Below, in pieces: positions 22,937 through 38,733 of a stretch of 64,000 bases of DNA (its first letter is position 1; each line of letters opens with the position of its first letter). A program made the position numbers and the translations under genes. The DNA lies in assembly GCA_003258405.1 (NCBI GenBank), contig QKPN01000010.1, forward strand, positions 1 to 64,000. The letters are read 5' to 3'. Below the pieces are notes generated by a model, which did no database searches, was not told the DNA's origin, and was given only the letters and a program-made list of their open reading frames with translations. The DNA is from Rhodobacteraceae bacterium DSL-40. GTDB taxonomy: Bacteria > Pseudomonadota > Alphaproteobacteria > Rhodobacterales > Rhodobacteraceae.

Positions 22937-23937
22937 ACATGGGCGCGCCGCTCCGGATCGGGATGCAGGCCGCCCCCTTCCATGCCGACGTCGCCCATGC
23001 CCCCGAGGGGGCAGAGGCCTTCTGGCTCGAGTCCCTCGACGGGCTCCGCATCCGCATCGTCCTCTGGCGCGGCGGCACCCGCGGCACGGCCTTCGTCTTT
23101 CCGGGCCGGACGGAATATGCGGAGAAATACGGGCTTGTCGCCGGACACCTCCTTGCGCGCGGCTTTTCGGTCGTGGTGATCGACTGGCGCGGACAGGGGC
23201 TCTCGACCCGCCCGCCGGGCGCGCCGATGATGGGCCATGTGCGGAGCTTCCCGGACTATCAGAACGACGTCGCCGTGGCGCTCGCCGCGGCGGAGGCGCT
23301 GGCGCTGCCCGCCCCGAAGCTGCTCGTCGCGCATTCGATGGGCGGCTGCATCGCGCTGCGCACGCTCCTCGAGACCCGCATCTTCCGGGCCGCGGTGATG
23401 TCGGCGCCGATGTGGGGGCTGCAGGTCCGCACCGCGCTCCGCGAGATCAAGGCCAAGGCGCTGCGGCGGGCGCGGCAGTTCGGGGTTCGGGCGACCGTGC
23501 CCGCAGGCTCCTCCTCGGATGCGACAGAGGTGAGCCGGGTGTTTGCCGGAAACGCGCTCACCTCCGATCCGGCGGCCTTCGACCGGGCGATGGCCCAGGT
23601 GGCGGCGCATCCCGAACTCGGCCTCGGACCGCCGAGCGCGGGCTGGACCCGCGCCGCCTTCGCCGAAATGGGCCGGCTGGCGCTGAAGGCCTCGCCCGCG
23701 ACGCCGATGCTCGTCTTTGCCGGCAGCGAGGAGCAGGTCGTCTCGCTCCGCGCGATCCGGCGGCGCTGTGCCCGGACACCGCAGGCAAGGCTCGTCGAAT
23801 GCCCGGAGGGGCGGCACGAGATCTTCATGGAGCACGAGGGGATCCAGCGGCTCGTCTGGGGCGAGGTCGACGGCTTTCTCGCGCAGTCGGACGCTGCCCT
23901 CGGCGAAGACCGCACGGATGAGACGGCCTCGGACTGA
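22933..23937 (+). CDS. Alpha/beta hydrolase, monoglyceride lipase/lysophospholipase (PldB) type
   Basis: A 334-residue hydrolase of the serine aminopeptidase S33/Hydrolase_4 type. The oxyanion region is FPGRTEYAEKYGLVAGHLLARGF, the strand WRGQGLSTR is characteristic of lysophospholipase PldB-like proteins, and the nucleophile elbow is VAHSMGG. The probable acid and base lie in PMLVFAGSEEQVVS and CPEGRHEIFME. Members hydrolyse monoacylglycerols or lysophospholipids. The start overlaps the SCP2 stop (ATGA), and this pairing with a lipid-carrier protein supports a lipid substrate. It converges with the HisN-like gene, with 12 bases between stops. Confidence 0.85.
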   Translation: MNMGAPLRIGMQAAPFHADVAHAPEGAEAFWLESLDGLRIRIVLWRGGTRGTAFVFPGRTEYAEKYGLVAGHLLARGFSVVVIDWRGQGLSTRPPGAPMMGHVRSFPDYQNDVAVALAAAEALALPAPKLLVAHSMGGCIALRTLLETRIFRAAVMSAPMWGLQVRTALREIKAKALRRARQFGVRATVPAGSSSDATEVSRVFAGNALTSDPAAFDRAMAQVAAHPELGLGPPSAGWTRAAFAEMGRLALKASPATPMLVFAGSEEQVVSLRAIRRRCARTPQARLVECPEGRHEIFMEHEGIQRLVWGEVDGFLAQSDAALGEDRTDETASD

Positions 23938-23949
23938 GGCGGTCCTGCT

Positions 23950-24756
23950 CTAGGTGGCCGCGCGGGACAGAAGCGCGAGCGCTTCGGCATGGGTGCGCGC
24001 GTCGCCGGCCGCGAGGATGCGGCCGCCCTGATGCGCGGGGCCGCCTGTCCAGTCGGTGACGATGCCGCCCGCCGCCTCGATCACGGCGATGGGCGCCTGC
24101 ACGTCATAGGCTTGAAGACCGGCTTCGATCACCAGATCGGCCTGCCCCATCGCAACGAGCGCATAGGCGTAGCAGTCGAGGCTGTAGCGGGTGAGGCGCG
24201 CGCGATCGCGCACCGTCTCGAAGGCCTTGCGCTCGACCGTCGACCCAACTTCCGGATAGGTGGTGAAGAGCACGGCCTCCGAGAGGCCCGCGCAGGGGCG
24301 GACGCGCATGGCGCGCCGCTCGGTGCCGCGCCGCATCTCGGCCGCGCCGAAGCCGCCGATGAAGCGCTCGCCGGTGTGGGGCTGGTCGATCACCCCGAGC
24401 ACGGGCCCCTCGCCCGCGTCCAGACCGATCAGGATGCCCCAGGTCGGGGCGCCGCAGATGAAGGCGCGGGTGCCGTCGATCGGATCGAGAACCCAGGTCA
24501 GGCCGCTGGTGCCCGGCCTCGCGCCGAATTCCTCGCCGTGGATCGCGTCTTCCGGCCGCCGTTCGGCCAGAAGTGTGCGCATTGCCGCCTCGGCATCACG
24601 ATCGGCGGCCGTGACCGGATCGAAGCCGTCAGCCGCCTTGTTGGCGGCCAGAAGGCCCTCACTCCGGAAGAGCGGCAGGCACCGCGCGGCGGCGACGTCG
24701 GCCAGCTCGCAGGCGATATCCCTGAGCGCCCCCTCCAGTTCCGGCGCAATCGCCAT
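23950..24756 (-). CDS. Inositol monophosphatase-family phosphatase, HisN-like (histidinol-phosphatase)
   Basis: A 268-residue metal-dependent sugar-phosphatase-fold enzyme. The metal site residues are visible in HGEEFGA, WVLDPIDGTRAF and the C-terminal LQAYDVQAPIAVIEAAGG. Details such as DPVTAADRDAEAAMRTLL and SGLTWVLDPIDGTRAFICGAPTWG are closest to the HisN histidinol-phosphatases of actinobacteria and alphaproteobacteria. These supply the penultimate step of histidine synthesis, but SuhB/CysQ-like roles cannot be excluded by eye. I chose the ATG at 24756 because a GGGGGG tract precedes it. The upstream ATG at 24771 has no site. Confidence 0.8.
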   Translation of the reverse strand: MAIAPELEGALRDIACELADVAAARCLPLFRSEGLLAANKAADGFDPVTAADRDAEAAMRTLLAERRPEDAIHGEEFGARPGTSGLTWVLDPIDGTRAFICGAPTWGILIGLDAGEGPVLGVIDQPHTGERFIGGFGAAEMRRGTERRAMRVRPCAGLSEAVLFTTYPEVGSTVERKAFETVRDRARLTRYSLDCYAYALVAMGQADLVIEAGLQAYDVQAPIAVIEAAGGIVTDWTGGPAHQGGRILAAGDARTHAEALALLSRAAT

Positions 24757-24852
24757 GCCGACCCCCCGCATCCCTGACCGTCAATCTCGGAACGGTTTCG
24801 GCCATCGGGATGCCGGGGTCAAGTGCATGGGCACTCCCCCCGGAGCAGCGGT

Positions 24853-25239
24853 TCAGGCGACGTCGCTGAGGACGCGCGCGAGGTCGAACAGGCGGCGGCG
24901 CTGGGTCTCGGGGATCGCGTAGTAGGACCGCACGAGCTCGAGCGCTTCCTTGTCGGCGAGCAGGTCGCCGCGCTGGGCTTCGGAGGAGGCGGGAGCCGCG
25001 GTCTCCTGACCTTCTTCCGCCCCTTCGAAGCCTTCGAAGAAGAAGCTGATGCTGACGTCCAGCGCCTGCGCGATGTCCCAGAGGCGGGACGCGCTGATGC
25101 GGTTCATCCCGGTCTCGTATTTCTGGATCTGCTGGAACTTGATGCCGACGATATCGCCGAGCTGCTGCTGAGTCATGCCGACCATCCAGCGACGGTGGCG
25201 GACGCGCTTGCCAACATGAACATCGACCGGGTGTTTCAT
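24853..25239 (-). CDS. XRE-family transcriptional regulator
   Basis: A 128-residue DNA-binding protein. Its N-terminal helix-turn-helix of Cro/C1 type (KRVRHRRWMVGMTQQQLGDIVGIKFQQIQKYETGMNRISASRL, about residues 10-55) is followed by an acidic linker (FFFEGFEGAEEGQ) and a short helical tail (ALELVRSYYAIPETQRRRLFDLARVL). Close relatives of this size are widespread single-domain regulators in Rhodobacterales; the target is unknown. The ATG at 25239 is preceded by GGAG at nine bases, and the longer open frame to 25299 lacks one. A 327-base upstream region holds two palindromes that may be its operators. Confidence 0.88.
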   Translation of the reverse strand: MKHPVDVHVGKRVRHRRWMVGMTQQQLGDIVGIKFQQIQKYETGMNRISASRLWDIAQALDVSISFFFEGFEGAEEGQETAAPASSEAQRGDLLADKEALELVRSYYAIPETQRRRLFDLARVLSDVA

Positions 25240-25353
25240 ACCATTTGCTCCGCTTTTCGCACTATTGCTACCCCTCAACCCAAGCATGAATCGTGCCAAC
25301 TCTTCTCACATGGGCTGTTGTCCCGCGGCATCATTCAATCAGAGGTGTTTTAA

Positions 25354-25365
25354 CTCAAATTTGAG
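25354..25365. promoter_or_regulatory. Perfect palindrome CTCAAATTTGAG
   Basis: This 12-base perfect palindrome lies about 115 bases upstream of the XRE start, in an AT-rich stretch. Its length and symmetry fit a dimeric Cro/C1-type regulator, so autoregulation by the adjacent XRE protein is plausible. No experimental match is known to me. Confidence 0.35.
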
Positions 25366-25445
25366 CAATTGGGGACACAATCCAGAGGCGAGCGTGTGCA
25401 TTGCACAAAACTCCCGTCAAAGGCGTCGCCCCTTTCTGCGAAGCA

Positions 25446-25462
25446 TTTTGCATTTTGCAAAA
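25446..25462. promoter_or_regulatory. Inverted repeat TTTTGCA-TTT-TGCAAAA
   Basis: A perfect 7-base inverted repeat with a three-base spacer lies about 207 bases upstream of the XRE start and about 105 bases beyond the typA stop. It lacks a T-tract in either direction that would make it a strong terminator. A protein-binding site is therefore as likely as a structured RNA element. Confidence 0.3.
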
Positions 25463-25555
25463 AGATTGAATGGTATTTTCCGAGATTTGTCTCGAAGCGC
25501 GAAGATGGGCATTGCTGCCACATCTTCCGAGGTCAGTCCAACAACCGGAGGGTAA

Positions 25556-25580
25556 GCAAGGCCGGTTCAACCGGCCTTGC
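25556..25580 (-). terminator. Hairpin overlapping the typA stop codon, possible terminator
   Basis: A perfect 10-bp stem (GCAAGGCCGG/CCGGCCTTGC) has a five-base loop that contains most of the typA stop codon. On the minus strand it is followed by TTACCC, so there is no real T-tract. It may end transcription weakly or protect the 3' end. Confidence 0.4.
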
Positions 25581-27384
25581 GTGCGTTGCGCTTGCGTTCG
25601 TGGGGGTCGAGATGGCGCTTGCGAAGCCTGATCGCCTTGGGCGTGACCTCCACAAGTTCGTCATCTTCGATATAGGCGATGGCCTGCTCGAGCGAGAGCC
25701 GCGTCGGCGGCGTCAGCACCACGGCCTCGTCCTTGCCCGCAGCCCGGACGTTGGTCAGCTTCTTGCCCTTGAGCGGGTTGACCTCGAGATCGTTGTCACG
25801 GCTGTGCTCGCCGAGGATCATCCCGGTGTAGACCTTTTCGCCCGACCCGATGAAGAACTTGCCGCGATCCTCGAGGTTGAAGATCGCATAGGCCACGGAA
25901 ACGCCGTCCTCCATCGAGATCAGCACGCCGTTGCGGCGGCCCGGCATGGTGCCCTTGTGCGGGGCCCAGTCGTGGAAGACCCGGTTGAGCACGCCGGTGC
26001 CGCGCGTGTCGGTGAGGAACTCGCCGTGATAGCCGATCAGGCCGCGCGAGGGCACATGCGCGATGATACGCGTCTTGCCACCGGCGCCGGTGCGCATGTC
26101 GGCCAGTTCGCCGCGGCGCTGGGAGAGCTTGTCGACCACGGTGCCGGCGAATTCCTCGTCGACGTCGATGGTGACTTCCTCGATGGGTTCCAGCGTCTGG
26201 CCGTCCTCGTCGCGGAAGAGCACGCGGGGGCGCGAGATCGACAGCTCGAACCCCTCGCGGCGCATGTTCTCGATCAGCACGCCCATCTGGAGCTCGCCAC
26301 GGCCCGAGACCTCGAAGGCCTCGCCGCCGGGCGTGTCCGTGACGCGGATCGCGACGTTCGACTCGGCCTCGCGCATCAGGCGGTCGCGGATGACACGGCT
26401 CTGCACCTTGTCGCCGTCCTGGCCCGCGAGGGGGCTGTCGTTGATGCCGAAGGTGACCGAGATCGTCGGCGGGTCGATCGGCTGCGCCGGGATCGGCGCC
26501 TCGATCGCCATGTCTGCGATGGTGTCGGCGACCGTCGCGGACGACATGCCAGCGAGGCTCACGATATCCCCGGCCTCCGCAATATCGATCGCCTGCTGCG
26601 ACAGGCCGCGGAAGGCGAGGATCTTGGAGACGCGAAACCGCTCGACTTCCTTGCCGTCGCGGCTGAGCGCCTTCACCGTGCGCCCGGCCTTGAGCGAGCC
26701 GGTCTCGACGCGGCCGGTCAGCAGGCGACCGAGGAACGGATCGGCCGCCAGCGTGGTCGCGAGCATGGAGAACGGTTCGTCCGCGCGCGCAAGCTGCTTC
26801 GGCGCCGGCACATGGTCGAGGACGAGCTGGAACAGCGCGTCGAGGTTTTCCCGCGCCCCCTCGAGATCGGTATCTGCCCAGCCGGCGCGGCCGGAGGCAT
26901 AGAGAACCGGGAAATCGAGCTGATCGTGATCGGCCTCGAGCGTCACGAAGAGATCGAACACCTCGTCCAGCGCCCGGTCGGGTTCGGCATCGGGCTTGTC
27001 GACCTTGTTGAGCACGACGATCGGCCGGAGGCCGAGGGCAAGCGCCTTCGAGGTCACGAACTTGGTCTGCGGCATCGGCCCTTCGGCGGCATCGACGAGC
27101 AGGACGACGCCGTCGACCATGCTGAGAATGCGTTCCACCTCGCCGCCGAAATCGGCATGGCCGGGCGTATCGACAATGTTGATCCGGTGCCCCTTCCACT
27201 CGACGGAGGTCGCCTTGGCGAGGATGGTGATCCCGCGCTCGCGCTCCAGATCGTTCGAATCGAGCGCACGCTCGGTCAGAGCCTGGTTCTCACGAAAGGT
27301 GCCTGATTGCTTGAGCAACGCATCGACAAGTGTCGTCTTGCCGTGGTCGACATGCGCGATGATCGCGATATTTCTGATGTCCAT
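25567..27384 (-). CDS. typA: Ribosome-binding GTPase TypA/BipA
   Basis: A 605-residue translational GTPase. G1 AHVDHGKT (residues 10-17), the switch region [16 protein letters not shown]3 [12 protein letters not shown] and G4 NKVDKPDA are intact. The C-terminal region with LIEYHGEF-like [20 protein letters not shown] and the terminal basic segment [18 protein letters not shown] are typical of TypA/BipA. It binds the ribosome under stress and affects 50S assembly. The open frame extends upstream across the tRNA-Gln region, but conserved sequence begins with [18 protein letters not shown] at 27384. It is divergent from tRNA-Gln. Confidence 0.97.
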
Positions 27385-27537
27385 AGCGGTAGGATCCCGA
27401 ATAACGGGTCGAGGCACCCGCGTGAGGCGCCATATATGCAGCGCAGCGAAAACGCAACGCCGCGTTGTCCGGGAGAAGAATGCCGGGGCTGCCCGAGAAA
27501 ATGCGGCCAAAGGAGCAAGAAAGCCGTTTTCACGCGC

Positions 27538-27566
27538 TTGACATTCCCAGCCCGGTGCGCGATTGA
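27538..27566 (+). promoter_or_regulatory. Promoter of tRNA-Gln
   Basis: TTGACA at 27538-27543 is a perfect -35 element. Seventeen bases later comes GATTGA as a -10 element. The predicted start would lie about 9-10 bases before the mature tRNA 5' end at 27582. Confidence 0.6.
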
Positions 27567-27581
27567 GGGCCCCGCAAACGC

Positions 27582-27655
27582 TGGGGAATAGGTTAACGGT
27601 AGACCCACGGACTCTGACTCCGTTAGTCCTGGTTCGAATCCAGGTTCCCCAGCCA
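27582..27655 (+). tRNA. tRNA-Gln (anticodon CTG)
   Basis: A complete cloverleaf. The acceptor stem TGGGGAA (27582-27588) pairs with TTCCCCA (27645-27651), followed by discriminator G and an encoded CCA. The anticodon stem ACGGA/TCCGT encloses the loop CTCTGAC with anticodon CTG at 27614-27616, and the T-arm is CCTGG-TTCGAAT-CCAGG. It reads CAG codons. The ben/cat gene cluster begins about 450 bases downstream on the other strand. Confidence 0.97.
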
Positions 27656-28110
27656 ATTTTCCCAACCCCATGATTTGATGATGCCCTTCCGGGAACCCGG
27701 AGTGTCGGCTTCTCCTGTGCCACCGCGCCGTGCCGCGACGTGTGCCACATGCAGGTGCGGGCGGCGCGCAACGCGTCTCCGGACCATGGGTCGGCGCACT
27801 GCCCACGCGAAAAGGCTTTCTGGCTGACGGTGCGCGCGCCGGAGCGTTTGGCGCACCGGGCCCCCAGATTTTTTTTGGCGCTTCTCGCGCCAGACCAATG
27901 TCCGCCGCGAGGCCCTCTGTCTGGCCCGGTCAGTCCGGGTGCCTTTGCGGCCCGACCTAAGGGCCGCATGGCGCCCTGACCAGCAACGGGGTGAGGTTCG
28001 CCTCAGGTCTCCCAGATAATAATGTGGACCTCTTCAGTGGGGCGGATCAGATACCGACCCGGCCTTGGGGCTCGTGACCGGAGGGCAGCCACGGATCTGC
28101 ACGCTCAGGA
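27656..28110. other. Gene-free junction between tRNA-Gln and the aromatic catabolic operon
   Basis: 455 bases without a supported gene. Open frames here are translations of tRNA complement or shadows. It contains a 7-bp stem GGTGCGC/GCGCACC at 27829-27857, then T8 at 27869-27876 separated by 11 bases, which is too far for a standard terminator. No repeat of the tRNA 3' end and no integrase remnant was found. Confidence 0.5.
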
Positions 28111-28971
28111 CTACGCTGAGTGTAAACTTGCCAGTACGCCCGCCCGCATCTCCACTCCCAGTATCTCGCGTGCCTGCTGCCACGTCGCGACCGGGCGCTC
28201 GTGCTTCTCGCAGAGATCCACGACGCGGGCGACCAGCGCGGCATTGGATGGCGCCAGCGTCTCCCGATCCAGACGGACGTTGTCTTCGAGGCCGGTGCGG
28301 GTGTGACCGCCGGACGCAATGCACCATTCGTTGATCGTCGCCTGATGTCGGCCAATCCCCGCAGCGCACCAGGGCACATCCGGGCCAAAGAGGCGCCTGA
28401 CGGTGTGGACATAGAAGTCGAAGACTTCGCGGTCCACCGGCATGGCATTCCTGACGCCCATGACGAACTGGACATATGGCGTTGCTGCGATCAGGCCATC
28501 GCGATGCATCCTGGCCGCCTGGAAGATGTGGCTGAGATCGAAGGCTTCGACTTCGGGCTTCACCCCGTATCTGACCATCTCGGCAGCGAGCCACTCGACC
28601 AGGTCCGGCGGGTTTTCGTAGACGCGGGTCGGGAAGTTGTTGGACCCCACCGAGAGAGAGGCCATGTCGGGCGCAAGCGACAGCATGCCACCACGGGCCC
28701 GCCCGGCCCCTGACCTGCCACCGGTCGAGACCTGGAAGATCATGCCGGGACAATGCCGCTCGATCCCTTCCTTGAGCCGCGCGAACCTCTCGGGATCGCT
28801 GGTGGGTTTCCCCTCCTCATCGCGGACATGCGCATGCACGATGGCGGCACCGGCCTCGAACGCCTCGTGCGTGCTTTCGATCTGTTCCGTGAGAGTAATG
28901 GGGACGGCCTGGTTGTTGGCCTTGTTCGGCAGCGAGCCGGTGATGGCAACACAGATGATGCAGGGGGTCAT
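28111..28971 (-). CDS. Beta-keto acid cleavage enzyme (BKACE, DUF849)
   Basis: A 286-residue TIM-barrel enzyme of the BKACE family (founding member 3-keto-5-aminohexanoate cleavage enzyme, Kce). Family members condense a beta-keto acid with acetyl-CoA to give acetoacetate and a new acyl-CoA. The zinc ligands His46 and His48 in VHAHVRD fall at the same numbers as in Kce, and Glu229 with Asp230 (RTGLEDN) and Ser82 match the catalytic set. Residue 14, a Glu in Kce that (from memory) contacts the substrate amino group, is Leu here. The start overlaps the pcaD-like stop by four bases. As last gene of the ben/cat operon it may act on 3-oxoadipate; that role is inferred. Confidence 0.88.
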   Translation of the reverse strand: MTPCIICVAITGSLPNKANNQAVPITLTEQIESTHEAFEAGAAIVHAHVRDEEGKPTSDPERFARLKEGIERHCPGMIFQVSTGGRSGAGRARGGMLSLAPDMASLSVGSNNFPTRVYENPPDLVEWLAAEMVRYGVKPEVEAFDLSHIFQAARMHRDGLIAATPYVQFVMGVRNAMPVDREVFDFYVHTVRRLFGPDVPWCAAGIGRHQATINEWCIASGGHTRTGLEDNVRLDRETLAPSNAALVARVVDLCEKHERPVATWQQAREILGVEMRAGVLASLHSA

Positions 28972-29825
28972 GACATGCTTTCTGATCTTGTCCGGTCGAC
29001 GGCGAAGGGCCGTCGGGATGCGGCAGTATCGGTTACTGGGTCGGGGGAGCAGAGGAAGTCCGACAGATGTGAATTGAACCCGCTCGCTGCTTCGATGTTG
29101 ATGATATGCCGCCCCGGCAGGATCACATGCTGCCCGTTCGGAACGGCCATGGCGATCGCCTCCAGATCGGCAGGCGGGCAGACCGGGTCGTCATCGCCCG
29201 AAATGGCCAGGAGGGGCGCCGTGATCCTGCCAAGACTGTCTTGGAGATCCGCCCCGGCAAGTGCCGCGCAGCAGGCCGCATAACCATCGACCGAGGTCGC
29301 GGCGAAGCTGTGGAGGATTCCGTCCACGATTTCTGGCTGGGCTGCGCGAAAGGCGGGTGTGAACCAGCGCTCCGCGGTCGCGGGCACGAGCCCATCCAGC
29401 CCGTTGGCTTCGACCTCGCCGATGCGCGCGTTCCAGCTCTCCGCTGTGCCGATCCGGGCCGCAGTGGCGCAGAGGACGACGCGGTCGAGCCGGCTGCTGG
29501 CGTGGATGCCCAGCCATTGCCCGGTCAGTCCGCCGATGGACAGGCCGCAGAAATGGGTTCGCTCGATGCCGAGTGCATCCATGAGCGCGATCACGTCGCC
29601 GCCCAGATCGGCCAGGCTCAAGGGGGCCCCCGCAGTGCCGGACTTGCCATGTCCACGGCGATCATAGCGCAGGATGCGGAACCTCTTCGACAGACCGGCA
29701 ACCTGGGCGTCCCACATGTGCAGGTCCGTGCCCAGGGAATTGCAGAAGGTCAGCCAGGGTTTTTCCGTCGAGGTCTCGTCGATGCGGTAGTGAAGACGAT
29801 GGGTCGGCAGGTTCAGATACGGCAT
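28968..29825 (-). CDS. pcaD: 3-Oxoadipate enol-lactonase
   Basis: A 285-residue alpha/beta hydrolase hydrolysing 3-oxoadipate enol-lactone to 3-oxoadipate. The family signatures are FCNSLGTDLHMWDAQV near the N-terminus, YDRRGHGKS, the nucleophile motif GLSIGGLTGQWLG, and the catalytic His in LPGRHIINIEA. It follows the MFS gene by 60 bases and overlaps the BKACE start by four bases (ATGA). It accepts the product of the CatC isomerase. The C-terminus extends about 20 residues beyond the usual end. Confidence 0.9.
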   Translation of the reverse strand: MPYLNLPTHRLHYRIDETSTEKPWLTFCNSLGTDLHMWDAQVAGLSKRFRILRYDRRGHGKSGTAGAPLSLADLGGDVIALMDALGIERTHFCGLSIGGLTGQWLGIHASSRLDRVVLCATAARIGTAESWNARIGEVEANGLDGLVPATAERWFTPAFRAAQPEIVDGILHSFAATSVDGYAACCAALAGADLQDSLGRITAPLLAISGDDDPVCPPADLEAIAMAVPNGQHVILPGRHIINIEAASGFNSHLSDFLCSPDPVTDTAASRRPFAVDRTRSESMS

Positions 29826-29885
29826 GTCAGATTTTCCCGAAAATGCGGCGCGCGGCCGGACCGCGCGCCGTCTCTCATGGTTCGA

Positions 29886-31214
29886 TCAGGTGGCGGCAAG
29901 CTGCGGGGTGCCGCGGACAGGCCCGCTGCTCAGCGCGAAGACCAGCATCGCAATGGCCGAGATCGCCGCCGGGATCGCGAAGATGAGGAAGTTCTGCTCG
30001 AGCGGCAGTTCCCGCGCCAGCAGCACACCGCCGAACGTCGGTCCGACGATCGCACCGATCCGGCCCACGCCCGAGGCCCAGCCGAGTCCGGTCGAGCGGA
30101 CCGACAGGTTATAGAGCTGCGCAACGCTGGCGTAGAGCAGGATCTGCGTGCCGATCGTGGTGGCTCCGGCGACGAAGACCAACGCGAAGAGCAGGCCCGA
30201 TGCGGGGTTGAAGCCGATCAGCGCGATCGACAGGCTCGCCGCCACGAAATAGGCAATGACGATCTTCGGGAGGCCGAAGCGGTCGCCCAGTCTGCCGCCC
30301 GCGATTGCCCCTGCCATGCCGCCGAAGTTCAGCGAGAACAGCGACAGAAGGCTGGCGCGTTCGGCATAACCGGCTTCCTGCAGCACCTTGGGCAGCCAGG
30401 ACGACAGCAGATAGACGAGGAGCAGGCAGCAGAAGAACGAGAGCCACAGCATCAGCGTGCGCAGGGCGCGGCCGTGGCGGAACAGTTCCGCGACCGAAGC
30501 CGAAACGCCCTTGGTCTCCGCGAACACAAGCCGGTCGTCCGCGGCCAGCGGCGTTCCCGAGACCTTGGCGAAGATGCGCCTTGCCTCGTCCTGCTTGCCC
30601 TGACGGATCAGGAACCCCAGAGACTCCGGCAGCTTCCACAGGATGACCGGCAACAGCAGCAACGGCACGGCAGCGATGAAGAACATGGGCTTCCAGCCGA
30701 AACTGGGAATGAGCCCGATCCCGAGGCCGGCCGCGACCATGCCGCCAATCGAATAGCCCGAGAACATCAGCGCAACAATCGTTCCGCGCATGCGTTTTGG
30801 CGCATATTCATTCATCAGCGCCACGGCATTCGGCATCAGGCCGCCGCAACCCAGACCGGCGATGAAGCGGAAAATCTTGAACTGCTCCGGCGAGTTCGCG
30901 AACCCCGTCAGCAGGGTCGCCGAGGTGAAGAGCAGAAAGCTGATCGCCACGCCCTTCTTGCGGCCGATCCTGTCGGCCAGCGGCCCCAGGATCAGCGCTC
31001 CGAACATCATCCCGAAGAGCGCCCACGCCTGGAGCGCGCCCGCCTGCGGCTTGGTCAGGCCCCATTCCGCGATCAGCGTCGGCAGCACCGTGCCGGCCAC
31101 GAATACGTCATAGCCATCGATCACCAGCAGCGCTCCGCAGAGCGCGACCACCATCCATTGAAAGCTTCCGAACGGGCCCTGGTCGATGGCCTCGCCTACG
31201 TCGATATTGCGCAT
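29886..31214 (-). CDS. MFS transporter, aromatic acid:H+ symporter family (benzoate uptake)
   Basis: A 442-residue inner-membrane protein with about 12 hydrophobic segments. The AAHS-type motifs are visible: DGYDVFVAGTVLPTLI in the first segment, the loop motif GPLADRIGRKKG after segment 2, GLGCGGLMPNAVALMNEYAPKRMRGT, and GGRLGDRFGLPK after segment 8. Family members import benzoate, protocatechuate or related aromatics by proton symport. Position within the ben/cat operon makes benzoate the most likely substrate (BenK-like), but specificity is inferred. Confidence 0.88.
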   Translation of the reverse strand: MRNIDVGEAIDQGPFGSFQWMVVALCGALLVIDGYDVFVAGTVLPTLIAEWGLTKPQAGALQAWALFGMMFGALILGPLADRIGRKKGVAISFLLFTSATLLTGFANSPEQFKIFRFIAGLGCGGLMPNAVALMNEYAPKRMRGTIVALMFSGYSIGGMVAAGLGIGLIPSFGWKPMFFIAAVPLLLLPVILWKLPESLGFLIRQGKQDEARRIFAKVSGTPLAADDRLVFAETKGVSASVAELFRHGRALRTLMLWLSFFCCLLLVYLLSSWLPKVLQEAGYAERASLLSLFSLNFGGMAGAIAGGRLGDRFGLPKIVIAYFVAASLSIALIGFNPASGLLFALVFVAGATTIGTQILLYASVAQLYNLSVRSTGLGWASGVGRIGAIVGPTFGGVLLARELPLEQNFLIFAIPAAISAIAMLVFALSSGPVRGTPQLAAT

Positions 31215-31251
31215 GTCTTGTCTCCACCCTGTTGATTGGTTCAGTTCTGGT

Positions 31252-32037
31252 TCAGCCCGTGTCGCCGCCCGCCACGGGCAGGACGGTCCCGGTGATGTAG
31301 GACGCCTCGTCGGACGCCAGGAAAAGGATCGGGGCGGCCTGTTCCTCGATCGTGCCGTAGCGCTTCATGAAGGCCGATTGGGCCACTTGGGTAACGACCT
31401 CCGCCATCCAGGCCTTTTCGGCAGCGCTGTCGCCCGAGGCGTTACGCGGGATCCGGCGGGGCGGCGCTTCGGTTCCGCCTGGAGCGGTGGCCACGACGCG
31501 GATGTTGCGGGGCGCCAGTTCCATCGCGAGCGACTGCGTGATCGCATTCACCCCGCCCTTGGCCGCCGAATAGGGGACGCGGTAGATGCCGCGCGTGGCA
31601 TTGGACGAGACGTTGACGATCGTCCCCCTGCCCCGCTCCAGCAGGTGCGGCAACACCGCATGACAGCAGTGGAGCGTCGGCATCAGCGAGCGCCGGATCT
31701 CGGCATCGATCTGGGCCGGTTCGAATTCGGCGAAGGGCCGCATGCGGATCGCGCCGCCCACGTTGTTGATCAGGATATCTATGCCGCCGAAGGTCTCGGC
31801 GGCGTGGCGCATGGCCGCGGCGGCACCGTCCCAGGTTTCCAAGTCAGCCTCGAAGGCCGCAGCGTCTCCGCCCGCCTCGGCGGCCACATCGGCCACGAAA
31901 TCGGCGCGGTCCACGAACAGGACCTTGCCGCCTTCGGCCGCGGCGCGCAGGGCGACCGCGCGCCCGATCCCCTGCGCGGCGCCGGTCACCACCAGCACCT
32001 TGCCCGCGAAGCGCCCGGCGAAATGTGCCCCGGTCAT
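31252..32037 (-). CDS. benD: 1,6-Dihydroxycyclohexa-2,4-diene-1-carboxylate dehydrogenase
   Basis: A 261-residue short-chain dehydrogenase. The NAD-binding motif is VTGAAQGIGRAVAL, followed by NNVGG, the catalytic Ser in NVSSNATRG and YSAAKGG for the Tyr-Lys pair. BenD oxidises the cis-diol produced by benzoate dioxygenase, releasing CO2 to give catechol. The start overlaps the benC stop by four bases, so it is coupled to the dioxygenase reductase. Local context fixes the assignment more than sequence alone. Confidence 0.9.
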   Translation of the reverse strand: MTGAHFAGRFAGKVLVVTGAAQGIGRAVALRAAAEGGKVLFVDRADFVADVAAEAGGDAAAFEADLETWDGAAAAMRHAAETFGGIDILINNVGGAIRMRPFAEFEPAQIDAEIRRSLMPTLHCCHAVLPHLLERGRGTIVNVSSNATRGIYRVPYSAAKGGVNAITQSLAMELAPRNIRVVATAPGGTEAPPRRIPRNASGDSAAEKAWMAEVVTQVAQSAFMKRYGTIEEQAAPILFLASDEASYITGTVLPVAGGDTG

Positions 32038-33062
32038 GCGATGGCCTTCAGGGGCACGTTGGGCGTGAACTTCTCGTAGTGGAAGCTCGCCGGGGTGAAG
32101 CCGCTCTCATCGAGGTAGTGCCGCACGGCATCGACCATCGGCGGAGGGCCGCAGAGATAGACATCGACCTCGCCCGCGGCGAGCATCTCCTCGGGCATGT
32201 GCTGCGTCACCCAGCCCTTGCGCAGGTGATCGGACGCCGGATCGGCAACGACCGTCGCGAAGGTGAAGTTCGGCAGACGGCTGGCGTAGGCCGCAATCTC
32301 GTCGACCAGAACCAGATCCAGATCGCGCGTGACGCCATAGACGAGATGGATCTGCCGCGTCGATCCGGCACGGGCCAGAACCTCGAGCATCGACAGGAAG
32401 GGCGCGAGGCCGGTGCCGCCCGCGAGGAACAGAAGCGGGCCGTCGCCGTCGCGCAGATAGAAGCTGCCCATCGGACCCGTCAGGTCCAGCTGGTCGCCGG
32501 GCTTCGCGCGGGCCAGCCAGCCGCTCATCAGGCCAGCCTCGATCTTCTTGATCAGGAAGCCCAGATTGCGCTCACCCGGGGCGCTACTGAACGAATAGGA
32601 GCGGTGCTCGCCGCTGCCCGGCACGCCGATGTTGACATATTGTCCCGGCAGGAAGGCGGGCGCCGAAGCGCTCTCGTCCACCTCCAGTTCCAGGACCACC
32701 GCCGCGTCCTGGTGCGGCTCGATGCGGGCCACGGTCGCCGGGAAGGTTTGCTGGCCGGTCTTGCAGGCCAGCGAGGTTGTCGGGACCGAGAGGACGCAGT
32801 CCGAAGACGGGACCATCTGGCAGGTGAGGACCAGCCCCTCCGCGGCCTCGTCCTCGGTGAGCGCGTCCTCTATATAGTCCTCGCCCATATCATAGCTGCC
32901 GCATTCGGCGCGGCACTTGCAGGTACCGCACACCCCGTCCGAGCAGTCCATCGGCAGGTTGATCTTGTTGCGAAATGCGGCGTCGAGAACCTTCTCGCCC
33001 GGCTTGCAGTCGACGAAGCGGGTGATGCCGTCCTCGAAGTTCAGTGCGATCCTGTAGCACAT
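32034..33062 (-). CDS. benC: Benzoate 1,2-dioxygenase electron-transfer component (reductase)
   Basis: A 342-residue reductase. Its N-terminal plant-type [2Fe-2S] ferredoxin domain has Cys40, Cys45, Cys48 and Cys81 (CSDGVCGTCKC, then LVLTCQMV). A FAD-binding domain (HRSYSFSSAPGERNLGFLIKK, residues about 180-200) and an NAD-binding domain (LLFLAGGTGLAPFLSMLEVL) follow. It passes electrons from NADH to the BenAB oxygenase. It lies between benB (45-base gap) and benD (four-base overlap), the standard ben order. Confidence 0.95.
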   Translation of the reverse strand: MCYRIALNFEDGITRFVDCKPGEKVLDAAFRNKINLPMDCSDGVCGTCKCRAECGSYDMGEDYIEDALTEDEAAEGLVLTCQMVPSSDCVLSVPTTSLACKTGQQTFPATVARIEPHQDAAVVLELEVDESASAPAFLPGQYVNIGVPGSGEHRSYSFSSAPGERNLGFLIKKIEAGLMSGWLARAKPGDQLDLTGPMGSFYLRDGDGPLLFLAGGTGLAPFLSMLEVLARAGSTRQIHLVYGVTRDLDLVLVDEIAAYASRLPNFTFATVVADPASDHLRKGWVTQHMPEEMLAAGEVDVYLCGPPPMVDAVRHYLDESGFTPASFHYEKFTPNVPLKAIA

Positions 33063-33107
33063 GGTCGCTTCCTCCTTGCGGTTTCTTGTGGCTGGGCTCC
33101 GTGGCCG

Positions 33108-33623
33108 TCAGACGTGGTAGACGTCGATGACCTGGCGGATGTAGTCGTTCTTCAGGACGATCTTCTTGGCCGCGATCACCGGTCCGTTCTCCGTCTGACG
33201 AAGGGTCACGAACATCGTTCCGAAGAACTGGTCGGTGGTCTTGTAGCGGTGGTTCAGCGTGTGGAAGTTATAGCGCACGTCCACCTCGCCCCCCCGCTCG
33301 GCGATCACCTCGACGTTCAGGACGGCATGGCTGGTGCGCGGTTCGGGCGTGGATGCGCCCGAACGCTCGGTCTTGATGCGGAAGACGCGGTCTTCGAGAC
33401 CTTCGCGGTTGGGATAGTAGATCAGCGAGATCTCGGACTGCGGGTCCTCGGTCGTCTGGTCGTTGTCGTCCCAGGCCGGCATCCAGTAGGACGCATCCGG
33501 CGCATAGCAGGTCAGCCACTCGTCCCATTGCCTGTCATCGAGCAGGCGCGCCTCGCGGTAGAGGAAGGCGCAGATGGTGCTGTAGTCCAGGCTGGTGCTG
33601 GCGATGTCCTGATCGAGGCTCAT
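33108..33623 (-). CDS. benB: Benzoate 1,2-dioxygenase small (beta) subunit
   Basis: A 171-residue ring-hydroxylating dioxygenase beta subunit with the SnoaL-like fold: [64 protein letters not shown] and the C-terminal [23 protein letters not shown]. It is structural in the alpha3beta3 oxygenase. The start overlaps the benA stop by four bases. Confidence 0.95.
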
Positions 33624-34990
33624 GCTGCTGCTCCCGTCTTCGCGCCGGCTTTCTCGGTCGCGAGCGCTTCACGCATCACGCGGGCCCAGTATTCGTGCTG
33701 GCAGACGAACAGGCCCTCGTCCTCGCTGCGTTCGCCCGACAGGAGCGGATTGAGCCCCATGCCGCGGGCGTTCTCGTCCGGGCCCTCGATCCACAGGGGC
33801 GCGCCGCGCGACATGTCGTTCCAGAGGTGCAGGCTGCCGGCATAGGCGGTCTGGCAGGCACGGAATTCCTCCAGATCGTCCGAGGTGCCCATGCCCGAGA
33901 CGTTGAAGAAGTCCTCATACTGGCGGATGCGGTTCGCGCGGTCCTCTGCGCTTTCGCCCTTGGGAGCAAAGCAGAAGATGGTGACCTCGGTCCGGTCCAC
34001 GCCGAGCGGGCGGACGACGCGGATCTGGGTGCTGAACTGGTCCATCAGGAACACGTTCGGATAGAGGCAGAGGTTGCGCGTCTGGTTGACGATGTAGCCC
34101 GCCTTCTTCTCGCCGACGCGGGCGATGATCTCGTCGCGGCGGTTGTAGACCGGGCGGACCTCGGGGTTGCGGGTGTTGGTCCAGAGGAGGATATGGCCGT
34201 TCTCGAAGCCGTAGACGCCGGCGACGGACTTGCTCCAGCTGTTGGCGTCGACTGCCTTGGTGCCGGTTTCGCTGCGGCGGTCCATCGTGGTGGCGTAGTT
34301 CCAGTGGACGGAACTCACGTGATAGCCGTCGCAGCCGTTCTCCATCTGCAGCTTCCAGTTGCCGTCATAGATGTAGGAGGAATTGCCGCGCAGAACCTCC
34401 AGGCCTTCGGGCGCCTGGTCGACAATCTGGTCGATGATGACGGTGGTCTCGCCCAGATAGTCTTCCAGGGGCGCGGCATCGGGGTTCAGGCTGCCGAACA
34501 GGAAGCCGCGATAGCTCTCGAAGCGGGCAACCTTCGTCAGGTTGTGCGAGCCGTCCTTGTTGAACTGTTCGGGATATTGCGTGGTCTTGGCGTCCTTCAC
34601 CTTCAGGAGCTTGCCGGTGTTGGCGAAGGTCCAGCCGTGGAACGGACAGGTGAAGCTTCCCTTGTTGCCCTGCTTGCGGCGGCAGAGCATCGCCCCCTTG
34701 TGGGCGCAGGCGTTGATGACGGCGTTCAGCGTGCCGGTCTTGTCGCGGGTGATGACCACCGGCTGACGGCCGATCCAGGTGGTGTAGTAGTCATTGATTT
34801 CGGGGATCTGGCTTTCATGGGCCAGATAGACCCAGTTGCCTTCGAAGATGTGCTTCATCTCCAGCGCGAAGAGATCCTCGTCGGTGAAGATGTCGCGCCG
34901 GCAGCGGTAGAGGCCGGCCTCGGCGTCGTCCTGCACGGCCGTGGCCAGCAGGTTATCCAGATCGCGGGCCTTTTCGAGTATCGCGGACAT
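33620..34990 (-). CDS. benA: Benzoate 1,2-dioxygenase large (alpha) subunit
   Basis: A 456-residue catalytic subunit. The Rieske [2Fe-2S] cluster is bound by Cys95-x-His97 and Cys115-x2-His118 (CAHKG and CPFHGWTF). The mononuclear iron site is around Asp221, His224 and His229 ([13 protein letters not shown]). The enzyme adds O2 to benzoate to form the 1,2-cis-dihydrodiol. Length is the usual 450-460. GAGGGAG lies a few bases before the ATG. Relatives such as toluate or anthranilate dioxygenase share these motifs, but the cat genes and a BenM-type regulator support benzoate. Confidence 0.94.
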
Positions 34991-35065
34991 GAGTTCTCCC
35001 TCGAGGGGTCGCGCCCTTGTCGGGCAGGCCCCTGCTTGATGTTGGTCTTGGGTGGACGGTGGGGT

Positions 35066-35094
35066 CGGGCAGTCGCGCCTTGGCGGACTGCCCG
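35066..35094 (-). other. Intercistronic hairpin between catA and benA
   Basis: A strong inverted repeat: GGGCAGTC...GACTGCCC, extended inside by CGCC/GGCG and outside by one C-G pair. It forms about 13 base pairs with one bulge and a two-base loop. It sits in the 115-base catA-benA spacer. No T-tract follows on the minus strand, so it is more likely an mRNA stabiliser or processing signal than a terminator. Confidence 0.5.
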
Positions 35095-35105
35095 GGATAT
35101 GCCGG

Positions 35106-36044
35106 TCAGGCGGCGGCGCGGCGGCGCTGCTCGTTGACCTGGTTGTCGACGCCGTCGACCAGCGCGGTCAGATGAATGTCGAAGCAGATCTCGGCGAAGG
35201 GGCCGTTCAGCCCGTTGGCGTGAATGCTCTCCTCGTCGGTGCGCTCAATGACGTGGGGCACCAGGCCTTCGCGGGTCGCATAGGCGAAATCGTCGTTGAT
35301 GAGCGGATCGCCTTCGATGTTGATCTGTGTGGTGAGCTTGCGATGACCATCGGCGCTGATGAAGAAGTGGATGTGCGCGGGGCGCTGTCCGTGCCGTCCG
35401 AGTGCCGTGAGAACCTTTTCGGTCGGGCTGCCGGGGGGCACGCCGTAACCGCTCGGCAGGATGCTCTGGAACCTGTAGCTGCCATTCTCGTCAGCGATGA
35501 TCGTGCGGCGCATGTTGAAGGGCGCCTGCTTGCCGGTCGGATCGAAGTGCGAATAGAAGCCGCGCGTGTCGCAGTGCCAGACCTCGACCTTCGCGCCGGG
35601 AAGCGGCTTGCCGTCGGCCCCATGGACCGTGCCGTGCATGATCAGCGTGTGGCCGTTGGTGTCGGTGCCGTCGTCAAGGCGCGCGAAGCCCGTCGATTCC
35701 GGGGCGCCGGCCACGTAGAGCGGGCCTTCGATGGTGCGCGGCGTCGGGTTCTCGATCCCCAGCGAGGCATCGATGGCGTCGAGCCGTTCGTCGATGAAGT
35801 GATCAATCCCCAGGCCCGGCGAAATGAGGCCCGCCTCGCCGGCTGCGCCCATATCGTTGAGCCACGCGACGCCGGCCCAGTATTCGTCCGGCGTGATATT
35901 CAGATCGTCGATCGCCTTGAACAGGTCCGACATCAGCCGATGGACGATCTCCTTCATGCGCGGGTTGCCGTCGTTGTTGTTCAGGCCGCTGAGTTCCTTC
36001 AGGAACGCCTGCACATCGGGACGGTCAAAAATCTGTACGGTCAT
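35106..36044 (-). CDS. catA: Catechol 1,2-dioxygenase
   Basis: A 312-residue intradiol dioxygenase opening catechol to cis,cis-muconate with a non-heme Fe(III). With the ATG at 36044 the iron ligands fall exactly at Tyr164, Tyr200, His224 and His226, the same numbers as the Acinetobacter enzyme ([28 protein letters not shown]). The N-terminal helical linker domain typical of catechol enzymes is present ([21 protein letters not shown]). The chosen start has GGAGG at eight bases; an in-frame ATG at 36062 lies ahead of that site. It lies between catC and benA. Confidence 0.96.
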
Positions 36045-36114
36045 GGTGTCTTCCTCCTTCATTCGTTTTCGAAACTGGGTGGGACGGCTTGTGCCGCCGT
36101 CCTCGTGGGCAGGG

Positions 36115-36405
36115 TCAGCTGTCGTCGTCGCGGATTGCGGACGGGTGGCGCAGCAGCGGCGTCACCTTGATGTCCATGAACGGAAAGAGCGGCAGCCCCG
36201 TCAGGATCTCGTGCAGCTCGGCGGTATCGCGCACGTCGAAGATGCTGACGTTTGCGTATTGTCCCGCGACCCGCCAGATGTGCCGCCACTTGCCTGAGCT
36301 CTGCAGATCCTGAGAGTAGGCCTTCTCGCGCGCGAGGATCTGGGCGGTCTCTTCGGCCGGCAGGTCGCGCGGGATCTTCACGTCCATGAAAACATGAAAG
36401 AGCAT
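36115..36405 (-). CDS. catC: Muconolactone delta-isomerase
   Basis: A 96-residue enzyme of the CatC family, which isomerises (+)-muconolactone to 3-oxoadipate enol-lactone. The start MLFHVFMDVKIPRDLPAEE, the central WRHIWRVAGQYANVSIFDV and the C-terminal MDIKVTPLLRHPSA are close to family consensus, and length is exactly normal. It starts two bases after the catB stop. Confidence 0.96.
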   Translation of the reverse strand: MLFHVFMDVKIPRDLPAEETAQILAREKAYSQDLQSSGKWRHIWRVAGQYANVSIFDVRDTAELHEILTGLPLFPFMDIKVTPLLRHPSAIRDDDS

Positions 36406-36407
36406 TG

Positions 36408-37613
36408 TCAGACCTTTCCGGCTGAGAGGTTCTTCGGGGGCAGACTGATCGTCTTGCGGATGCCGTCGCGGGCAAAGAAGGCCACGCGGTCCTCGTCGAG
36501 CGTCAGGCCGAGCCCCGGTCCGTTGGGAACGCTCAGTTCGAACTCGCTGTAATCGAGCGGCTCGGCCAGGATTTCCTCGGTCAGAAGCAGCGGGCCGAAG
36601 AGTTCCGTGCCCCATTGCAGATTGGCGAAGGTCGCGAAGGCGTGGGCGGAAATCACGGTGCCGACTGCGCCTTCCAGCATCGTGCCGCCGTAGAGGCCGA
36701 TGCCGGCGGCGTCAGCGATGGCCGCGACCCGCAGGGCGTTGAAGGCGCCGCCGCTCTGCTCGAGCTTGACGGCGAAGACGTCGGCCCCCTGGACCTGGGC
36801 AAGCTCGAAGGCGCTTTCAGGGCCGGTCAGCGCCTCATCCGCCATCAGCGCGACGGGAAACCGGCGCACAAGCCGCGCGAGCGCCGCGCTCGAGGCGACA
36901 GGCTGTTCCACCAGTTCACATCCCGCATCGGCGAGCGCTGCCATCCCCCAGGCCGCCTCCAGCTCGGACCAGGCCATGTTGACATCGACCCGGACCGCGC
37001 CCCGCGCGCCAAGCGCCGACCTGATTGCGGCGACGTGAGCGATATCGTCGCGGATCGGGCGGGCGCCGATCTTGAGCTTGAAGATGCGGTGCCGGCGGCA
37101 ATCCAGCATCTGTTCCGCTTCGGCAATGTCGCGAGACGTGTCGCCCGAGGCGAGGGTCCAGGCCACCGGCAGCCGGTCGCGCCGCCGCCCGCCGAGAAGC
37201 TCGCTGACCGGCAGGCCGAGCCGCTTGCCCTGTGCATCGAGCAGCGCGGTCTCCACCGCGGATTTCGCGAAGCGGTTCTCGCGAACAAGCGAGCCGATCC
37301 GCCCCATCAGGGCCTGGACCCGCGTCGCGTCCTGGCCGACCATCGCCGGCGCGAACCACGTGTCGATATTGGTCTTCATGCTTTCGGGGCTTTCGCCGCC
37401 GTAGGCCAGGCCGCCGATGGTCGTGCCTTCCCCGATGCCCACGATCCCATCGCTGCAATGAACCCGAACAAGCACAAGGACTTGCCCGGTCATCGTCGCC
37501 ACGGAAAGCTTGTGCGGCCGGATGGTCGGAAGATCGATGATCACCGTCTCGATGCGCGTGATGACAGCGCAGGTTTCGGTGGCGGGGGTGAGGGGTGCAA
37601 ATGACTGGTTCAT
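36408..37613 (-). CDS. catB: Muconate cycloisomerase
   Basis: A 401-residue enolase-superfamily enzyme (MLE subgroup) converting cis,cis-muconate to muconolactone. The catalytic Lys pair in FKLKIG, the metal ligands in RVDVNMAW, LVEQP and ALMADEALT, and the second Lys in FAVKLEQSGG are all present. It is the first gene of the operon. The ATG at 37613 lies 57 bases from the LysR-type operator. An upstream GTG at 37652 is possible but would bring the start very close to the operator. Confidence 0.95.
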   Translation of the reverse strand: MNQSFAPLTPATETCAVITRIETVIIDLPTIRPHKLSVATMTGQVLVLVRVHCSDGIVGIGEGTTIGGLAYGGESPESMKTNIDTWFAPAMVGQDATRVQALMGRIGSLVRENRFAKSAVETALLDAQGKRLGLPVSELLGGRRRDRLPVAWTLASGDTSRDIAEAEQMLDCRRHRIFKLKIGARPIRDDIAHVAAIRSALGARGAVRVDVNMAWSELEAAWGMAALADAGCELVEQPVASSAALARLVRRFPVALMADEALTGPESAFELAQVQGADVFAVKLEQSGGAFNALRVAAIADAAGIGLYGGTMLEGAVGTVISAHAFATFANLQWGTELFGPLLLTEEILAEPLDYSEFELSVPNGPGLGLTLDEDRVAFFARDGIRKTISLPPKNLSAGKV

Positions 37614-37669: not shown

Positions 37670-37684
37670 ATACCCTCAGGGTAT
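37670..37684. promoter_or_regulatory. BenM/CatM-type LysR operator ATAC-N7-GTAT
   Basis: ATACCCTCAGGGTAT at 37670-37684 is a perfect palindrome (ATACCC-TCA-GGGTAT). It also fits exactly the ATAC-N7-GTAT consensus known for BenM and CatM of Acinetobacter. It lies 57 bases upstream of catB and 90 bases upstream of the divergent regulator gene, where it can control both. Confidence 0.75.
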
Positions 37685-37773
37685 AGTGAGCGCATAGTCG
37701 TGGAGTTTCAGCCTCCTTTGCGCCGCATGATACTCAGAATGGAGACCTGTTCCGCTTTCTCGGGGGTGTGACG

Positions 37774-38733
37774 ATGGATCTGAGACAACTGCGCTATTTT
37801 ACCGCCGTCGCGCGCGAGCGGAACTTCACCCGGGCGGCGGAGCGCCTTCACATTGCGCAGCCGCCGCTCAGCCGCCAGATCCAGCTGCTTGAAGAGGAGC
37901 TGGGCGTCTCCCTGATCCATCGGAAGAGCCGCCCCATCAAGCTCACCGACGCCGGACGGCTCTTCTACGAACAGGCGCTTCAGGTTCTGGGGCGCATCGA
38001 TCAGATGAAGGATGCCACACGCCGGGTCGGCCTGCACCGGAACAAGGTGCTGTCCATCGGCTTTGTCGCCTCGACGCTCTACGGCGGACTGCCCTTGCTT
38101 ATCAGGAAATTGCGCCAGAATGCGCCCGAACTCGACATCCAGTTGCTCGAGATGCTGTCGATCCAGCAGATCGCGGCACTGAAGGAAGGGCGCATCGATC
38201 TGGGCTTCGGCCGCCTCAAGCATAGCGATCCGAATATCCACAGCACCGTCATGCGCGAGGAGCGGCTCGTTGCCGCACTGGCCCAGGACACGGAGCTCGC
38301 GCGGGACATCGCGCCGCTGCCGCTGGCGGCACTCTCAGGCCAGAAGCTGATCGTTTACCCGAAGGAGCCCCGTCCCAGCTATGCCGACCAGATCCTGACC
38401 TTGCTTCAGGACGAGGACGTTCGCCCCTCCGAGGTCCTGGAAGTGCGCGAGATACAGACAGCGCTCGGACTGGTTGCGGCCGATTCGGGGATCAGCATCA
38501 TTCCGGCCTCGGCACGGCAGATGCGTTCGGATGTGCTCTACCGGTTGATCGACGGGCCGCGGGCCTTCTCTCCGGTCATTCTCAACCATCGCGCGGGAGA
38601 CAGCTCGCGGTATCTGGTGTTGGTAAAGCAACTGATCCGCGACATGTATGCCGAGAACCCTCCCTGGCTTGAAGCCAACAATATACACCCCCTGCCAGCC
38701 GAAGGAGGCTCCCCGGGAGCTGCGGAGAACTGA
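37774..38733 (+). CDS. catR: LysR-type regulator of benzoate/catechol genes (BenM/CatM/CatR type)
   Basis: A 319-residue LysR protein. Its N-terminal winged helix is MDLRQLRYFTAVARERNFT, then AAERLHIAQPPLSRQIQ. The effector domain strongly resembles BenM/CatM: IGFVASTLYGGLPLLIRKLRQ, IAALKEGRIDLGFGRLKHSDP and ALGLVAADSGISIIPAS. BenM and CatM respond to cis,cis-muconate and benzoate and activate ben and cat operons. It is divergent from catB with the operator in between. An in-frame GTG six bases upstream is possible, but MDLRQL is the standard start. Confidence 0.93.
   Translation: MDLRQLRYFTAVARERNFTRAAERLHIAQPPLSRQIQLLEEELGVSLIHRKSRPIKLTDAGRLFYEQALQVLGRIDQMKDATRRVGLHRNKVLSIGFVASTLYGGLPLLIRKLRQNAPELDIQLLEMLSIQQIAALKEGRIDLGFGRLKHSDPNIHSTVMREERLVAALAQDTELARDIAPLPLAALSGQKLIVYPKEPRPSYADQILTLLQDEDVRPSEVLEVREIQTALGLVAADSGISIIPASARQMRSDVLYRLIDGPRAFSPVILNHRAGDSSRYLVLVKQLIRDMYAENPPWLEANNIHPLPAEGGSPGAAEN

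Follow-up and report, generated by a model that had tools for sequence, protein, structure and literature searches.

The 64 kb stretch of Rhodobacteraceae bacterium DSL-40 analysed here (the window) carries an operon that very probably converts benzoate to 3-oxoadipate and then, through the beta-keto acid cleavage enzyme (BKACE, DUF849) predicted from its last gene, cleaves this acid with acetyl-CoA. The operon lies on the minus strand at positions 28111-37613 and comprises ten co-directional genes, catB-catC-catA-benA-benB-benC-benD-MFS-pcaD-DUF849, with gaps, from catB to DUF849, of 2, 52, 115, -4, 45, -4, 37, 60 and -4 bases. This order, the short spacings and the three four-base overlaps (benA/benB, benC/benD and pcaD/DUF849) agree with an original prediction made from the letters of this DNA. 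Eight of the ten genes score above curated NCBIfam cut-offs, with benA and the MFS gene slightly below theirs (Table 1). The catechol branch to 3-oxoadipate is complete within the operon (CatA, CatB, CatC and PcaD), and NCBIfam profiles recognise no pcaI, pcaJ or pcaF among its ten genes, as had been predicted. A plasmid of Rhodobacter sp. CZR27 is annotated with the same gene order (a LysR gene, then catB-catC-catA-benABCD-MFS-pcaD-BKACE), which argues for more than a chance arrangement. A further genome of the family, G023, has the operon of the window minus pcaD; its single pcaD above cut-off adjoins a second BKACE elsewhere.

The BKACE of the window scores above the cut-offs of the family profile PF05853 (24.8 bits) and of the NCBIfam equivalog NF053568, named 3-oxoadipate:acetyl-CoA acetyltransferase. 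His46, His48, Ser82, Glu229 and Asp230, to which we presumably can assign the metal-binding and catalytic roles, are all where the original prediction had placed them. So is Leu14, which aligns with a Glu of the lysine-fermentation enzyme Kce (structure 2y7d); we take this Glu to be number 14 of Kce and to contact the amino group of its substrate. The nearest solved structures are 3fa5, 3chv and 3no5 (515, 461 and 408 bits), whose molecule names (DUF849 or uncharacterized) reveal no function, and Kce ranks fourth. We aligned 84 sequences, namely the BKACE of the window, its two paralogues, the CZR27 protein and those of 80 further loci, all close relatives. His46, His48, Ser82, Arg86, Arg116, Arg225, Glu229 and Asp230 are invariant in all 84, and position 14 is Val in 44 and Leu in 40. 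Such invariance says little by itself, as 105 positions are invariant in this set of close relatives. Because Kce has Ala and Asp at the positions aligned with Arg86 and Arg116, these two arginines are candidate ligands for the second carboxylate of 3-oxoadipate.

Extending the search for PcaIJ and PcaF to the whole DSL-40 assembly (190 contigs, completeness given as 100), we found no PcaF above the TIGR02430 cut-off (best match 397 bits, cut-off 597) and no close PcaIJ. As references we used Rhizobium sp. TAL182 and Thioclava sp. GXIMD4216, whose pcaIJF clusters are 74-78% identical to one another; the four best full-length thiolases of DSL-40 are 37-46% identical to the PcaF of these two. 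Four PF01144 matches make up two A/B CoA-transferase pairs, neither of which exceeds 50% identity to the PcaIJ references. One pair resembles a pair on a Sinorhizobium meliloti plasmid (87% identity for A, 79% for B) that does not adjoin pca genes, and we take it to be ScoAB. For the other, identity with the references is 43-48% for PcaI and 48-50% for PcaJ, and its A subunit is closest to the acetate CoA-transferase alpha model, below cut-off (279 of 315). Both pairs score above the cut-offs of the joint pcaI_scoA and pcaJ_scoB models, by which the two kinds are not distinguished. The 17-18 kb surrounding each pair contain none of the ben, cat or pca genes queried. A thiolase on contig C114 scores 655 bits with a BktB subfamily model, above the cut-off of 565. 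The genome has no acetoacetyl-CoA synthetase match above the TIGR01217 cut-off (best 250 of 521 bits), and no match to PaaA at an E-value of 1e-80.

Three PF05853 genes are present in this genome, mutually 77-80% identical at the protein level, all above the NF053568 cut-off and all adjoining ring-cleavage-type genes. The second, on the same contig as the operon, belongs to a protocatechuate cluster, pobA-pcaD-pcaC-pcaH-pcaG-BKACE-pcaB, in which pcaB is slightly below cut-off. The third adjoins genes for a muconate cycloisomerase, an alpha/beta hydrolase and an intradiol-dioxygenase-like protein that scores below the catechol dioxygenase cut-offs; this hydrolase and dioxygenase are also found upstream of BKACE in two related loci, L045 and L065, the latter with pieces of benC and benD at its cut end. 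Thus BKACE genes stand in operons of both branches to 3-oxoadipate, and nothing PcaIJF-like was found in the assembly. Taken together, the equivalog match, the lack of a PcaF above cut-off and of PcaIJ-like genes in the assembly, the paralogue in the protocatechuate operon and the published work discussed below support the original assignment of BKACE as the probable 3-oxoadipate-cleaving enzyme. The third module was seen in the DSL-40 genome at L020:5000-11000 (contig C169, approximately 23000-29000), in the order LysR-like, intradiol-dioxygenase-like, alpha/beta hydrolase, BKACE, muconate cycloisomerase. A third pcaD-type gene (C180:172436-173185, 327 bits) lies on a contig devoid of BKACE, next to an open reading frame that by eye resembles a CBS-domain protein.

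In the proposed pathway, BenABCD, CatA, CatB, CatC and PcaD would lead from benzoate to 3-oxoadipate, and BKACE would turn 3-oxoadipate and acetyl-CoA into succinyl-CoA and acetoacetate. The ScoAB-like pair encoded elsewhere in the genome could then move CoA from succinyl-CoA onto acetoacetate, and a thiolase would split the resulting acetoacetyl-CoA into two acetyl-CoA; such a SCOT-like pair and several thiolases are indeed present. From these known reactions, the net balance would be 3-oxoadipate + CoA -> succinate + acetyl-CoA, identical to that of the PcaIJF route, since acetoacetate still requires activation and thiolysis. The 'shortened' pathway of the original prediction is therefore a term to be used with care: it holds for the 3-oxoadipate step, where one gene replaces three in the operon, but not for the net route, which relies on a CoA-transferase and a thiolase of general acetoacetate metabolism. 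Both the substrate of BKACE and the fate of acetoacetate in this organism are what we infer. In one related locus (L038:4243-5620), a scoA-like gene, 86% identical to that of DSL-40, directly follows BKACE, a pairing that fits the idea of acetoacetate passing to ScoAB. In deoxyribose breakdown, which goes through another BKACE, an acetyl-CoA C-acetyltransferase gene was also found to be important (PMC6365646), and this role fits the fate proposed here for acetoacetate.

How general is this association in the family? We surveyed 61 genomes, including that of DSL-40, and counted only matches above cut-off, which left out one PcaF and four PcaD matches. BKACE occurs in 44 of the 61 genomes and is commoner with pcaD (40/49) than without (4/12; p 0.002). 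In 10 of the 61 genomes a BKACE gene is found no more than 5 kb from pcaD, while no genome has PcaF within 30 kb of it. PcaF is present in 36 genomes, 28 of them with BKACE (16 have BKACE only, 8 PcaF only and 9 neither). Mutual exclusion of BKACE and PcaF was thus rejected (no anti-correlation, Fisher p 0.26).

The benzoate gene benB is above cut-off in 10 of 295 sampled genomes of the family and in 3 of 11 of the genus, DSL-40 being counted in both. We examined ten ben regions from other genomes, of about 20 kb each, and found BKACE in three (G023, G186 and G295) and pcaI, pcaJ or pcaF in none. In all but that of G023 the ben cluster is of another kind, its Ben proteins sharing 52-65% identity with those of the window. 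The benB match of G023 (C11:734338-734802) contains one internal TGA. Among the nearest named BKACE relatives (best 80 of 216), 44 have pca genes in their neighbourhood, 2 carry the third module and 3 a different aromatic gene, and the remaining 31 have no queried aromatic gene nearby; the cat-ben order of the window was seen in none of these best 80 of 216. Two of the loci with no queried aromatic genes have other neighbours: in L026 (7985-10831) BKACE comes after a fatty acid desaturase gene and a weak match to a xylose-isomerase-like TIM barrel, and in L029 (9995-10834) it adjoins a six-S1-domain, rpsA-like protein.

Several of these observations weigh against BKACE as the 3-oxoadipate-cleaving enzyme. 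Because it co-occurs with PcaF, BKACE need not be the only route in other genomes; the test against PcaF still gives p 0.11 among pcaD genomes, and when PcaF genes near paaA are excluded, PcaF remains in 10 of 44 BKACE genomes compared with 7 of 17 others (p 0.20). Only 19 of the 36 genomes with PcaF carry it within 12 kb of paaA. Its distance from pcaD partly reflects draft contigs: among the 33 genomes having both genes, just 7 have them on one contig. The 31 relatives without queried aromatic genes nearby count on the same side, 9 of these loci being under 20 kb. For DSL-40 itself, it is possible that a PcaIJ or PcaF gene was missed in an assembly of 190 contigs, NCBIfam models cannot tell PcaIJ from ScoAB, and the thiolases or the second CoA-transferase could have an unexpected range.

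In one alternative BKACE is accessory: one of the two CoA-transferases of the genome would be the main activator of 3-oxoadipate, a thiolase of broad range, perhaps the BktB-like enzyme, would carry out the thiolysis, and BKACE would deal with some side product, for instance a methylated oxoadipate. The two CoA-transferase pairs, both above the PF01144 cut-off, the several thiolases and the BktB score of the C114 enzyme are compatible with such a scheme. However, the limited identity of both pairs to PcaIJ, the lack of queried ben, cat and pca genes near them, the overlap of BKACE with pcaD and its recurrence in the protocatechuate operon all argue against it, and we hold it very unlikely. A second alternative, that the enzyme is Kce, or a BKACE for another substrate, located here by chance, draws on annotation: 27 of the 30 plasmid entries listed name the gene a 3-keto-5-aminohexanoate cleavage protein or enzyme. 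Against this, the protein falls below the cut-off of the Kce lysine-fermentation equivalog NF052387 (246 bits, cut-off 382), Leu replaces Glu14, and the operon is retained in CZR27 and, without pcaD, in G023. Lysine-fermentation genes are absent from the operon, the other members of which are ben, cat, pcaD and MFS genes (the rest of the genome was not searched for them). We regard this explanation as extremely improbable.

Returning to BKACE as the 3-oxoadipate-cleaving enzyme, we lean towards the view that in much of the family both branches of the beta-ketoadipate pathway ordinarily end with it, with several copies in some genomes, one per ring-cleavage operon, and that about half of the PcaF matches belong to phenylacetate degradation. 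The drain of aromatic acids would then be governed by acetyl-CoA and acetoacetate metabolism rather than by PcaIJF. The gene names commonly taken from lysine fermentation would make the aromatic pathway look incomplete; correct naming would credit many alphaproteobacteria with the use of benzoate, catechol and protocatechuate again, and tie aromatic breakdown to acetoacetate.

Upstream of the operon and divergent from catB lies a LysR gene, for which BenM and CatM are the best models, with scores far below the cut-offs of both, which are narrow models. The region between the two genes contains ATACCCTCAGGGTAT, the only exact ATAC-N7-GTAT in the 64 kb, where about 0.14 would be expected by chance from base composition. 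We take ATAC-N7-GTAT to be the BenM/CatM motif. The identical 15-mer is found in the same orientation in the matching intergenic regions of CZR27 and G023, and the LysR protein may control the operon through this site. A scan for sigma-70-type promoters found none. Beyond the other end of the operon, a typA/bipA open reading frame (25567-27969) covers, as called, an opposite-strand tRNA-Gln gene (27582-27655); its GTPase match begins at residue 197, so that the true start is likely downstream.

Table 1. Features of the benzoate operon and its upstream region in the window
Feature	Position	Strand	Evidence
BKACE / DUF849, predicted 3-oxoadipate:acetyl-CoA acetyltransferase, 286 aa	28111..28971	-	PF05853 308 bits; NF053568 489 bits, cut-off 350; active-site residues
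pcaD, 3-oxoadipate enol-lactonase	28968..29825	-	TIGR02427 320 bits, cut-off 256; 4-base overlap with BKACE
MFS transporter, aromatic acid/H+ symport family	29886..31214	-	TIGR00895 370 bits, cut-off 419 (just under)
benD, benzoate diol dehydrogenase	31252..32037	-	NF040811 437 bits, cut-off 380
benC, benzoate dioxygenase reductase	32034..33062	-	NF040810 549 bits, cut-off 430
benB, benzoate 1,2-dioxygenase small subunit	33108..33623	-	TIGR03232 253 bits, cut-off 226
benA, benzoate 1,2-dioxygenase large subunit	33620..34990	-	TIGR03229 748 bits, cut-off 781 (just under)
catA, catechol 1,2-dioxygenase	35106..36062	-	TIGR02439 449 bits, cut-off 392
catC, muconolactone isomerase, 96 aa	36115..36405	-	TIGR03221 149 bits, cut-off 131
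catB, muconate cycloisomerase	36408..37613	-	TIGR02534 subfamily model 553 bits, cut-off 335
Putative operator, ATAC-N7-GTAT palindrome	37670..37684	.	Sole exact match in window; identical 15-mer in CZR27 and G023
LysR-type regulator, BenM/CatM-like, divergent	37768..38733	+	Best models BenM 265 of 600 bits, CatM 251 of 580 bits

Comparing with known systems, we saw no difference between the BKACE of the window and the NF053568 family, above whose cut-off it scores. With Kce 2y7d it has the family and the named active-site residues in common, but differs at Glu14 (Leu here) and at the Ala and Asp that are aligned to Arg86 and Arg116. Our literature searches turned up no account of this particular operon. 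The role, however, is not new, having been proposed in print for a catechol operon of Ralstonia eutropha (Cupriavidus necator) H16 and for pca operons of Methylobacterium. In H16, a COG3246 gene is co-transcribed with catBCD under CatM/BenM, and the authors suggest that in catechol metabolism its product might serve to cleave beta-ketoadipate (PMC6449761, 2019). H16 thus also has a BKACE among catechol/benzoate genes, but it is a Betaproteobacterium and its gene arrangement is unlike that of the window. The pca clusters of Methylobacterium are described as having DUF849 (kce), placed between pcaG and pcaB, and lacking pcaIJF (PMC8963497, 2022, where Bastard et al. are cited); beta-ketoadipate is listed in group G3 of Bastard et al. 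(PMC4922564), which differs on the group from PMC8963497. The one-step reaction is stated in PMC12379598 (2025), where pcaHGBL and kce, together with van genes, gave M. extorquens growth on protocatechuate; the construct was without pcaIJF, the host's own pcaIJF status aside. Methylobacterium therefore follows the same logic with the same proposed reaction, in the protocatechuate branch whereas the operon of the window serves the benzoate/catechol branch, and its pcaG-BKACE-pcaB position is shared by the second BKACE of the DSL-40 genome.

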